NCBI RefSeq assembly: GCF_003254475.1
Contig: NZ_QFYQ01000001.1
Location: 2,294,001-2,358,000, forward strand
Source: Phenylobacterium soli
GTDB taxonomy: Bacteria > Pseudomonadota > Alphaproteobacteria > Caulobacterales > Caulobacteraceae
DNA: 64,000 bases
Direction: 5' to 3'
The notes under the pieces were generated by a model. The model saw only the letters and a program-made list of their open reading frames with translations, searched no databases and was not told the DNA's origin. The translations under genes were made by a program, and so were the position numbers. Positions within the stretch are counted from its first letter, which is position 1. The number at the start of each line of letters is the position of its first letter. Shown piece by piece: positions 49,505 to 53,161 of this stretch.

Positions 49505-51355
49505 TTAAGGTCCGCGCAGGGTGAGGCGCGCCTGCACCTCCGAGGGGATGGTGCGCAGTTCCAGCGCCACGATACCGTGGCCATAGAGCGGATCGGGACC
49601 CTTAGGGCCAAGGTCCAGGGCCTGCCGCCCGAGGGCGGCGACGGCGTGGCTGGCGGCGAGGGGATCGATGCGCGGCGTCAGCCGCGCCAGGAGCCCGGCG
49701 GCCAGCGGGGCGGCGAAGGAGGTCCCGCGCACGGCGACGAAGCCGCCGTCGACTCCGGCGGCGGCCATGTCGGAGCCTGGGGCGGCGAAGTCCACGTGCG
49801 CCCCGCGGCTGGCTTCGGGCAGGATTCGCCGGCGCAGATCGACGCCGGTGACCGCGACGACGCCGGGATAGCCGGCGGGATAGAGCGGCGGGGCGGCGGG
49901 GCCGTCGTTGCCGACCGCGGCGACGACCACGTGGCCCTGGGCGATCAGCGCCTTCACGGCGGCTTCGAGCAGGATGTTGGGCGGCCCGACCAGGCTGACG
50001 TTGATCACCGGCGCGCCGGTCTGGGCGAGCCAGCCGAGGCCGCGCGCGATAGCGTCGGCCGAGCCGCCGGCGGCGGTGCTCCCGTAGACGTCGGCGACAT
50101 AGAGCGTGGCGCCCGGCGCAGCGCCGCGGAACCGGCCGCTGCGGCCGGCGATCAGGGAGGCGACCGCGGTGCCGTGGGCGCTGGGCTTGAGCCCGCCCGG
50201 GGCGAAGCCGCGCTGTACCAACTTGGATCCGCTGAGCGCCGGCTGGGCGGCCGCCACGCCGCCGTCGACCAGGCCGACGCGCACCCCGCGAGCGGTGGGG
50301 GCGGCCGGTCCCGACGCCCGCGCCGGCGCCGCCGCGCGCGCCTTCACCGCGCCGCTCTCCTGGTAGATGTGGTTGAAGTCGTACCGGCCGGCGGGATCGA
50401 GGGCGCGAAGCCGGTTCAGCGCCTCCACCGCGCTGATCCCGCGCGGCCCGAGCAGCACCACGTTGCGCACGCCGAGACCGGGCAGGGTCTCGTCGGAGCG
50501 GATGCGGAAGCCCGCGCGCTCGGCCTTGGCGATGGCGGCGGACGAGGGCGACAGGGCGAGGATCTCGCCGCGCACGACGGGGCGGCCGAGATTATCGGGT
50601 TCGACCACGTCGCGGTGGAATTGCAGCAGCTCGCGAACCTGCGCCTTGCGGGCCTGAGTCAGGTCCGAGACCTCGGAGACGGCGCTCTCCTCGGACTTGC
50701 CCTTGGCCTCGCGGATTTCGTCGGCGGCCTTCTCGCGGACCTCGCGGCCCTTGTTCTCCATCTCGCGGGCTTCGGCCCGGATCGCGCGCGCGGTGTCGCT
50801 GGCGTGATCCGGGAGATCCTCGACCTCGCGGCGAAGGGTCAGGCCTGGACCGGGACCCGGATCGTCGAATGTCCGGATCGGCGCACGATCGGGGCCACGC
50901 CGGTCGCCACCCCAGCCGGCGCCCGGGCCGAGAGCCGAGCCCTCGCGCGAACCCGCTCCCGGGCCATAGGTCGCTTCACGGCTGTCGTCGGCGCGATGAA
51001 ATCCTGTCCCGAGGCTCGAGTTGGGCGAAAGGGGCGAAACGCTGCCGCCGCCACCGCCGCCGCCACCCAGGCGCGGACCGCCGCCCAGGCCGCCAGGGCC
51101 GCCGACGCCGCCCGAAAGGCCGCCGCCGATCGCTCCGCCGGGCGTGGCGCCGCCGCCGCCGATCGGCAGGCCCGGCAGGCCTGCGGGGCCGTGATCGTCG
51201 CCGCCCCGGGCATGGCCGCCATCCTCGGCGAGGATCGGGCTCGCGCCGCAGAGGTTGAGCGCGGCGGCGAAAGCGGCCAGCTTCAGCAGCCAGACCATGT
51301 TCATGGGCCTGCTCTTGCGCTCGATCTGCGGTTCGGGACGGCGGGGAAGGGCCAT
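49505..51355 (-). CDS. Secreted subtilisin-like (S8) serine protease
   Basis: 616 residues from the ATG at 51355 (AGGAAG just upstream); an ATG at 51304 would give 599 with a tidier signal peptide (VWLLKLAAFAAALNL). A Gly-rich segment (about 55-150) and a charged helical segment (about 172-245) precede the protease domain (about 355-600). The triad is D364 (GLVDGG), H394 (SAHGTAVAS) and S546 (RGTSFAAP), with oxyanion N483. It is divergent from an ECF sigma gene and probably its target. Confidence 0.9.
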   Translation of the reverse strand: MALPRRPEPQIERKSRPMNMVWLLKLAAFAAALNLCGASPILAEDGGHARGGDDHGPAGLPGLPIGGGGATPGGAIGGGLSGGVGGPGGLGGGPRLGGGGGGGGSVSPLSPNSSLGTGFHRADDSREATYGPGAGSREGSALGPGAGWGGDRRGPDRAPIRTFDDPGPGPGLTLRREVEDLPDHASDTARAIRAEAREMENKGREVREKAADEIREAKGKSEESAVSEVSDLTQARKAQVRELLQFHRDVVEPDNLGRPVVRGEILALSPSSAAIAKAERAGFRIRSDETLPGLGVRNVVLLGPRGISAVEALNRLRALDPAGRYDFNHIYQESGAVKARAAAPARASGPAAPTARGVRVGLVDGGVAAAQPALSGSKLVQRGFAPGGLKPSAHGTAVASLIAGRSGRFRGAAPGATLYVADVYGSTAAGGSADAIARGLGWLAQTGAPVINVSLVGPPNILLEAAVKALIAQGHVVVAAVGNDGPAAPPLYPAGYPGVVAVTGVDLRRRILPEASRGAHVDFAAPGSDMAAAGVDGGFVAVRGTSFAAPLAAGLLARLTPRIDPLAASHAVAALGRQALDLGPKGPDPLYGHGIVALELRTIPSEVQARLTLRGP

Positions 51356-51469: not shown

Positions 51470-51964
51470 TTGCACGGACTGCAGCGCCAGATCGTCGACC
51501 TGTTGCCACGCCTGCGCCGGCTTGCCCGGGCGCTGGCGCGCGATCCTGTCGACGCCGACGACCTGGTGCAGGCGACCGTCGAGCGCGCGCTGCTCCACCA
51601 GGGGCAGTGGCGGCCCGGGACCCGCCTGGACAGCTGGATGTTTCGCATCATGAAGAACGCCTGGATCGACGAGAGCCGCGCTCGAAGCCGCCGCGGCAAG
51701 GTCTTCGCCCCCGAGGAGCAGGGCGAGACCGTCGGCCAAGACGGCGCCCTGGCCATGCAGCTTCGTCTGGAGGCCGGCGACGTGGAGAAGGCCATGGCCA
51801 AGCTGCCCGACGAGCAGCGCATCGCCGTGGCGCTCGTCCTGGTGGACGGCCTTTCCTACAAGGAGGCCGCCGAGGTGCTGGAGGTGCCGCAGGGCACGCT
51901 GACCAGTCGCCTGGTGCGCGGTCGCATGGCGCTCCTGGCCCATCTGGAAGGGGACGCGGCATGA
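51470..51964 (+). CDS. ECF-type RNA polymerase sigma factor
   Basis: 164 residues, from a TTG start; a stop just upstream leaves no ATG option. Region 2 (LARALARDPVDADDLVQATV, then ERALLHQGQWRPGTRLDSWM) and region 4 (KLPDEQRIAVALVLVDGLSY, then KEAAEVLEVPQGTLTSRLVRG) are both there, with region 3 absent as expected. The stop overlaps the start of the anti-sigma gene (ATGA). Confidence 0.92.
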   Translation: MHGLQRQIVDLLPRLRRLARALARDPVDADDLVQATVERALLHQGQWRPGTRLDSWMFRIMKNAWIDESRARSRRGKVFAPEEQGETVGQDGALAMQLRLEAGDVEKAMAKLPDEQRIAVALVLVDGLSYKEAAEVLEVPQGTLTSRLVRGRMALLAHLEGDAA

Positions 51965-52656
51965 CGCGCGAAGAAACCCTCATCGCCTATGTGGACGGCG
52001 AACTCGCCGGGACCGAGCGCGCGCGCTTCGAGGCCGAGATCGCCGCCGATCCCGTGCTGGCGCGCGAGGTGGCGCGCCATCGGGCGCTCGCCGATCGGGT
52101 CGGCGCGGCCTTCGCGCCGGTGCTGGACGAGGCGATCCCGCCGCAGCTGCTGGCCGTGGCCCACGCGGCCAACGACCTGGGCGGCGCGCAGCCGAATCTC
52201 TGGCGACGGGTGCGCCCCGTTGCCCCCTGGGCCGGGATCGCCGCCTCCCTGGCCATCGGCGTCCTGGCCGGACGGGCGCTGCTGCCGCAGGCGGGCCCCT
52301 TGGTGGCGCACGACGGCGCTCTTGTGGCGCAGGGCCGGATCGCCCAGGCGCTGGACAGCCAGCTCGCGGCCGAGCCGGGCGTGGTCAAGGTGGGCTTCAC
52401 CCTCAAGGCGCCGGACGGCCGCTATTGCCGGACGTTCGAGAGCGCGACCGACCGGTTGGCGGGCTTGGCTTGCCGCGAGGACGGCCGCTGGGTGGCGCGC
52501 ACGGTGACCGCCTGGACGCCGGCGGCGGCCAGCCCGGCCTATCGCCAGGCCGGCAGCGACACGCCGCCGGAGGTGCTGGCCGCGGTGGATGGCCTCTCCG
52601 GCGAGCCGCTCGATGCGGCCGCCGAGCGCGCGGCGCGTCAGCGCGGCTGGAAGTGA
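51961..52656 (+). CDS. Membrane-anchored anti-sigma factor
   Basis: 231 residues. The N-terminal cytosolic part (MTREETLIAYVDGELAGTER) is the typical anti-sigma start, followed by one membrane helix (about 91-110, WAGIAASLAIGVLAGRALL) and a periplasmic C-terminal domain of about 120 residues with two cysteines (CRTFES and LACREDG). It is coupled to the sigma gene. The signal sensed is unknown. Confidence 0.9.
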   Translation: MTREETLIAYVDGELAGTERARFEAEIAADPVLAREVARHRALADRVGAAFAPVLDEAIPPQLLAVAHAANDLGGAQPNLWRRVRPVAPWAGIAASLAIGVLAGRALLPQAGPLVAHDGALVAQGRIAQALDSQLAAEPGVVKVGFTLKAPDGRYCRTFESATDRLAGLACREDGRWVARTVTAWTPAAASPAYRQAGSDTPPEVLAAVDGLSGEPLDAAAERAARQRGWK

Positions 52657-52900: not shown

Positions 52901-52947
52901 GCGGGGCCATCTGAGCGCCCCGTGGAAACGGGCGCCCCAGAAAAGCG

Positions 52948-52976
52948 AAAGGCCGCCCGTTGTCGGGGCGGCCTTT
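52948..52976. terminator. Bidirectional terminator between DUF3606 and the 22-codon gene
   Basis: AAAGGCCGCCC (52948-52958) pairs with GGGCGGCCTTT (52966-52976), 11 bp, loop GTTGTCG. The A and T runs let it work on both strands, ending DUF3606 forward and the small reverse gene. Confidence 0.85.
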
Positions 52977-53025
52977 CCATAGTCGGACCGCGAACGCGGT
53001 TCCGAACCCTTGCCGAAACGAAGGC

Positions 53026-53094
53026 TTAGGCGCGGACCTCGAAAGCGGAGGTCCAGGTCCGGTGTTCCGCATTGCGGATGAAACTATGAGACAC
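53026..53094 (-). CDS. 22-residue small protein with strong ribosome binding site
   Basis: The frame starts at a GTG (53094-53092) and ends at TAA (53028-53026). The peptide begins MSHSFIRNAEHR and ends WTSAFEVRA. The Shine-Dalgarno (AAAGGAGGTGATCC, 53096-53109 on the reverse strand) is complementary to the whole 3' end of 16S rRNA, with seven bases between GGAGG and the GTG. A promoter lies upstream and a terminator downstream, so it has its own transcript of about 180 nt. I cannot name a family. It may be a small protein, a leader peptide or a dual-function RNA. Confidence 0.7.
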   Translation of the reverse strand: MSHSFIRNAEHRTWTSAFEVRA

Positions 53095-53132
53095 TGGATC
53101 ACCTCCTTTCAGCTGTTGAACAGGACGATTCA

Positions 53133-53161
53133 AATATGGGGCCGATCGCGCCCCGCCGCAA
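53133..53161 (-). promoter_or_regulatory. Promoter of the 22-codon gene
   Basis: On the reverse strand TTGCGG (53161-53156), a 17-bp spacer and CATATT (53138-53133). A GANTC site (GATTC, 53127-53131) lies at the expected transcription start, as in CcrM-responsive promoters. Confidence 0.5.

Follow-up and report, generated by a model that had tools for sequence, protein, structure and literature searches.

Conserved reading frame, weakly constrained peptide and covarying 3′ fold-back in a CC2171 (RF01867) small RNA of Phenylobacterium soli

The minus strand of a 64,000-nucleotide stretch of the Phenylobacterium soli genome (the window, to which all coordinates below refer) carries a member of the small RNA family RF01867 (CC2171, 'caulobacter sRNA') with a reading frame that is conserved in relatives, a peptide that is only weakly constrained, and a covarying fold-back of the RNA onto its own initiation region. 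On the reading favoured here, to which we give about an even chance, the locus is a translated small RNA whose function probably lies in being translated, or in how far it is translated, more than in the peptide, and in which the 3′ end gates the initiation region. The RF01867 model matches over its full length (1-159/159; cmscan, 91.1 bits, E = 1.7e-17), above the family gathering threshold of 75 bits. A covariance model of our own, R1, gives 156 bits (E 8.9e-42), a score that is high by construction because the locus sequence belongs to the model. A first-pass annotation made from the letters of the window had described the gene as unlabelled, which the Rfam match corrects.

The predicted transcript of about 185 nt occupies positions 52943..53128 on the minus strand, as do all elements described here, with the RF01867 match at 52949-53118. 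Upstream of it lie a −35-like box, TTGCGG (53156..53161), and, 17 nt away, a −10-like box, CATATT (53133..53138); a similar −10-like box stands at an equal distance in many relatives. These boxes had been called a promoter, but a consensus sigma-70 scan gave no match, and they are best described as promoter-like only. The remaining elements of the first-pass annotation were recovered. The extended Shine-Dalgarno sequence GAAAGGAGGTGATCCAG (53094..53110) is the complement of 17 nt of the 16S 3′ tail, and its final G is the first base of the GTG start codon (53092-53094). From there a frame of 22 codons, GTG...TAA, encoding MSHSFIRNAEHRTWTSAFEVRA, runs through 53026..53094, and the transcript would end at an intrinsic terminator hairpin of 12 pairs (9 G-C) with a T-rich tail (52947-52977). 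The tail sequence matched by GAAAGGAGGTGATCCAG (...CTGGATCACCTCCTTTC) was taken from other alphaproteobacterial replicons, not from the P. soli rRNA genes, and is present in 217 plasmid records. The 4.02-Mb genome has a single copy of the 17-mer and no second exact copy even of its 13-mer core, and nearly all of 30 genomes in the genus have the extended site once each. Among 48 diverse members of the family GAAAGGAGGTG is invariant. A DUF3606 gene lies 3′ of the RNA in convergent orientation, no same-strand gene stands directly downstream in the window, and the neighbours of family members differ between lineages; the convergent neighbour and the unstable synteny led to rejection of a leader of a downstream gene. 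Elsewhere in the window, an ECF-type sigma factor gene is followed by a frame without a Pfam match, possibly its anti-sigma factor (the two within 51470-52656), and a tRNA-Leu(cag) called by ARAGORN at 50237-50330, inside long overlapping frames and below the Rfam threshold, is possibly a false call.

Of 299 Caulobacteraceae genomes, 248 have matches to RF01867, usually a single one. Among 385 genomes drawn from Alphaproteobacteria, the Rfam model matched in 85 and our covariance model in 87, and a phylum-wide sample searched with our model yielded 59 Alphaproteobacteria against one weak outsider, the drawn sets being other than random samples, so that these counts are not estimates of prevalence. 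The match outside the class (G718) is weak and has no such Shine-Dalgarno sequence or frame, and was taken as false. The motif GAAAGGAGGTGRYCCAGTGTCTCAT occurs in at least 120 stretches of named genomes, among them those of Methylobacterium, Bosea, Microvirga, Pseudolabrys, and several Acetobacteraceae. By the evidence of these matches, the family spans Alphaproteobacteria and is not confined to Caulobacter. CC2171 reportedly stems from a tiling-array survey of C. crescentus by Landt et al. in 2008; in the literature searched, CC2171 was not found named together with Caulobacter. A CC2171 member of Mesorhizobium huakuii was already listed in 2017 (PMC5596092), and Schrader (2014) states that two predicted ncRNAs are translated. 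An annotated plasmid-borne copy was sought, and the one plasmid copy found, in Methylobacterium radiotolerans (L211, NZ_CP090580.1 165616-165690), is unannotated and has umuD and a gene for a Y-family polymerase about 2 kb away. In several Bosea genomes (L094, L095, L117, L158) the RNA is upstream of a same-strand gene that by eye resembles RNase R. A betaproteobacterial contig of a 'Ramlibacter' MAG (L163) with a Caulobacteraceae-type copy is probably binning contamination.

The reading frame is conserved well beyond the genus. Of 178 distinct members, 170 reach an in-frame stop after 20-26 codons; the other two frames do so in 4 and 27, and shuffled sequence in about 20 (maximum 33 over 200 shuffles). 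Because the members are related, these counts are not independent. The set was picked by a pattern that includes the frame start (GTGTCTCAT), and nothing downstream of it was used for selection. Stop codons are TGA in 92, TAA in 51, and TAG in 35, and this use of all three, together with the breadth of the class, makes the frame result strong. One member (L055) has a +1 shift that is restored downstream, with most of the frame kept, and another (L027) has a premature stop. Divergent clades, reached as covariance-model matches and named here with the suffix '-like' where the name is a guess, keep the Shine-Dalgarno sequence, a start codon (GTG, ATG, or TTG), and a clade-typical length: 18 codons in Rhodobacteraceae- and Sphingomonad-like members, 14 in Bradyrhizobium-like members, and 23 in Rhizobiaceae-like members. 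The peptides are unrelated between clades. The 170 of 178 members with a conserved frame led to rejection of a purely non-coding sRNA. By this pattern of conservation, RF01867 members carry a real coding frame; the label 'non-coding' fails, and family membership does not. The first-pass annotation had named loss of the frame in relatives as an outcome that would count against it, and on this count it is not refuted. It had also left a choice between an abundant small protein and a coding sRNA, of which the latter is the better description, with a real frame that relatives keep. From this strong comparative evidence we infer that the frame is translated in P. soli.

The peptide itself is another matter. 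In a synonymous/nonsynonymous comparison of the kind proposed in the first-pass annotation, the frame was kept but the peptide proved barely constrained: pN/pS is 0.88-1.07, whereas three neighbouring genes in the same genomes, taken in 20-codon windows, have medians of 0.17-0.38. Codon-model omega for the small frame is 0.57-0.93, with dN/dS in so short a frame being biased by saturation and by RNA structure. In likelihood-ratio tests omega = 1 is not rejected in the genus of the window (2dlnL 0.07), is mildly rejected in Caulobacter (2dlnL 5.95), and is clearly rejected over all 167 members (2dlnL 21.6), which suggests weak purifying selection on amino acids over the whole set and leaves some room for a peptide role. 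What appears conserved in the peptide can in large part be traced to the RNA. Wherever Thr precedes the common Trp, its codon is ACC, inside the nucleotide motif GRCCTGG, and the conserved Thr-Trp is therefore read as an RNA-level constraint. Likewise, the identity of residue 4 (Cys, Ser, Arg, or Gly) varies together with its base-pairing partner. Judged by these patterns, part of the constraint on the small frame is at the RNA level. The main hint of a role at the amino-acid level is the last residue, which is Ala in 115 of the 167 members with all four Ala codons in use; this Ala may act as a degron or reflect a preference at termination. A search of five family peptides against NCBIfam gave 0 matches, and a known protein family for the peptide was rejected on this result. 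An abundant functional small protein, as first suggested, is thus disfavoured, its amino acids evolving near neutrality and most of its conserved residues being explained by conservation of the RNA.

Alignments and predicted folds of the family point to a long-range interaction between the 3′ end of the RNA and its initiation region. RNAalifold, run on 48 diverse members, found unprompted a helix (P1) that joins codons 3-4 to the stretch immediately 5′ of the terminator. In the window, the 5′ arm CATAGTT (53082..53088) covers codons 3-5 and the 3′ arm GACTATG (52978..52984) adjoins the terminator hairpin on its upstream side; the predicted pairing probability of the two is 0.99, and the RNA minus its terminator still folds better than shuffles (z -2.3). 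In covariation score and in double-change cells, 0 of 500 shuffles came up to P1, and the helix is lost when its partner is displaced by one to three columns. In a larger set, where the terminator and an ATG anchor served to locate the 3′ arm, standard pairing at the first position of codon 4 holds in every row (145 of 145), through the pair types TA, TG, AT, CG, and GC. Of the 32 members that lack TGT at codon 4, 23 make the first three variable pairs, whereas random arms give 4 on average. The CAT/ATG part of P1 is invariant, lends no support by itself, and is presupposed by the ATG anchor. P1 corresponds to the long-range helix that the RF01867 consensus places before the terminator, now with support from covariation.

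The partner of the fold-back differs among clades. The fold-back is CATGGT.CAG/CTG.ACCATG in a Sphingomonad-like member and GTG.TTTCG/CGGAAA.CAC in Rhizobiaceae-like members, while in Rhodobacteraceae-like members (L246-L249, L259) a pre-terminator CACCTCC, or a shorter form of it, pairs with the Shine-Dalgarno sequence and not with codons 3-5. A universal anti-Shine-Dalgarno switch is not supported, since the longest anti-Shine-Dalgarno match averages 5.4 nt in the main set against 5.0 nt in shuffled sequence; the match is 5-9 nt in Rhodobacteraceae-like and 7-9 nt in Sinorhizobium-like members. The predicted folds of five members (L152, L159, L127, L242, L251) do not contain the fold-back. 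In Bradyrhizobium-like L242, L243, L256, and L159, the 14-codon frame carries (T)CACCTC, which is able to pair with the Shine-Dalgarno sequence; it shares positions with a CTCGCTGG/CCAGCGAG long-range helix, and the two pairings may form a two-state switch. The predicted fold of most members leaves part of the Shine-Dalgarno sequence open along with the start codon, and the fold-back therefore may not block initiation. Very high translation, which the first-pass annotation had read from the ribosome binding site, is not assured, given a helix that starts at codon 3 in most clades and a paired Shine-Dalgarno sequence in Rhodobacteraceae-like members.

A mechanism can be proposed in which the RNA would be independently transcribed and would draw the ribosome by a Shine-Dalgarno sequence complementary to the whole 16S tail, and the ribosome would translate a frame of about 14-31 codons. 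Once the transcript is finished, the pre-terminator segment would pair with codons 3-5 (with the Shine-Dalgarno sequence in Rhodobacteraceae-like members), so that a long rod encloses the frame. Roughly 15 nt downstream of a start codon lie under a 30S subunit bound there, which must therefore melt or exclude a helix that begins at nt +7. At this RNA the subunit would cover codons 3-5, and ribosome loading and the closed fold would be mutually exclusive. Selection preserves the fold-back together with the landing site, an open frame, and its start codon, but hardly the peptide. Since landing site, start, frame, and competing structure are kept while the peptide drifts, the simplest account is that the output is translation and not its product. 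Ribosome occupancy of the RNA would reflect initiation capacity or react to it, and would control the stability of the RNA or the exposure of its 3′ segment. We hold only tentatively, and on balance would not expect, the further proposal that the family is a class-wide, stand-alone translation-sensing switch in which the ribosome competes with the 3′ fold-back arm, fold and fate report the ease of initiation, and the frame serves as a ribosome track with no conserved peptide.

Other explanations of the same data place the function elsewhere. The locus might encode a functional, fast-evolving micropeptide whose synthesis the RNA structure merely tunes, and the strictly kept frame and stop, the constraint below neutrality over the whole set (2dlnL 21.6), the C-terminal Ala with synonymous variation, and the possible orthology with the S. 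meliloti peptide SEP1 (Sinorhizobium-like members encode 23-aa peptides) agree with this. However, pN/pS is about 1 in the genus of the window, the peptides of different clades are unrelated, the conserved Thr-Trp is a nucleotide motif in which Thr is always ACC, and changes between Cys4 and Ser4 track the base pair and not the residue, which makes a micropeptide a doubtful explanation, if a serious one. It is rather unlikely that the RNA is a dual-function sRNA that is translated and also base-pairs in trans with target mRNAs. It was discovered as an sRNA family and is annotated in Rfam as non-coding, and there are alphaproteobacterial precedents in Pos19 (PMC5036791) and rnTrpL (PMC10117765), but the alignment of 48 members shows no conserved unpaired seed besides the Shine-Dalgarno region.

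The perfect complement of the 16S tail invites the suggestion of a decoy that titrates free small subunits. 6S RNA, which titrates RNA polymerase, is the model for this idea, and both the 17-nt complement, present once per genome, and a landing site predicted to lie mostly outside the rod would suit it. A decoy requires neither frame nor stop, yet both are kept, and beyond AAAGGAGGTG the extension varies (GACCCA, GACCA, and GGTCCA occur); we regard this possibility as very unlikely. The pairing of the 3′ end with the initiation region of a tiny frame also recalls a type I toxin-antitoxin-like mRNA with hok-style fold-back inhibition, but the peptides, judged by eye, are short, hydrophilic, and variable where a hydrophobic membrane peptide would be expected, and mostly single-copy, family-wide presence suggests a housekeeping element, so that such a system is highly improbable. 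Finally, the motif is by its nature the reverse complement of the 16S tail, and could in principle be an artefact in which an open frame happens to lie on the antisense strand of a 16S fragment. With an Rfam match at a unique locus and with frame, fold, and terminator conserved class-wide on the minus strand, an origin as 16S antisense or an rDNA fragment was rejected, and chance deserves practically no weight.

An RNA labelled as a Caulobacter non-coding sRNA thus appears to be among the broadly conserved translated small RNAs of Alphaproteobacteria, a class with model organisms, symbionts, and pathogens. The RNA family was already known, as was, through Rfam, one further covarying pair for CC2171 (PMC11701678). 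New relative to the literature covered are the class-wide range, the conserved frame with weak peptide constraint, and the clade-specific fold-back onto the initiation region. A full-tail Shine-Dalgarno sequence, frame conservation free of the peptide, and a covarying 3′-to-start fold-back are combined here in one RNA, and the combination offers a direct handle on the question whether a stand-alone bacterial RNA can be conserved for its translation itself and not for a peptide or for base pairing. This question is testable in standard strains.

Several known systems share features with the translated RNA favoured here. In hok mRNA, a small frame has its 5′ initiation region paired with the 3′ end of the transcript. 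The RF01867 family has such pairing in common with hok, but is without a membrane-toxin-like peptide, mostly single-copy, and class-wide. Leader peptides and attenuators such as trpL and rnTrpL likewise have a short frame interleaved with RNA structure, and their translation itself can be functional; the RNA described here differs in having its own terminator, no same-strand gene directly downstream, and lineage-specific neighbours. The alphaR8 (SisA-D) sRNAs are defined by the single-stranded core UUUCCUCCCU (PMC12559287), which was not found in the predicted transcript of the locus. S. meliloti SEP1 is described as an acidic protein of 23 aa and pI 4.18, conserved in Rhizobiaceae, with the highest translation efficiency among unannotated sORFs and a tagged form seen by Western blot (PMC10117765). 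The Sinorhizobium-like members resemble it in their 23-aa, mostly acidic peptides and in lineage, although their calculated pI of 4.4-5.9 differs from that stated for SEP1; compared by these descriptions, SEP1 may be an ortholog of these members. The closest counterpart is the RF01867 model itself, whose structure line has the same P1 helix and terminator as this locus; it is filed as a non-coding Caulobacter sRNA, whereas the family is seen here with a conserved frame and a class-wide range.
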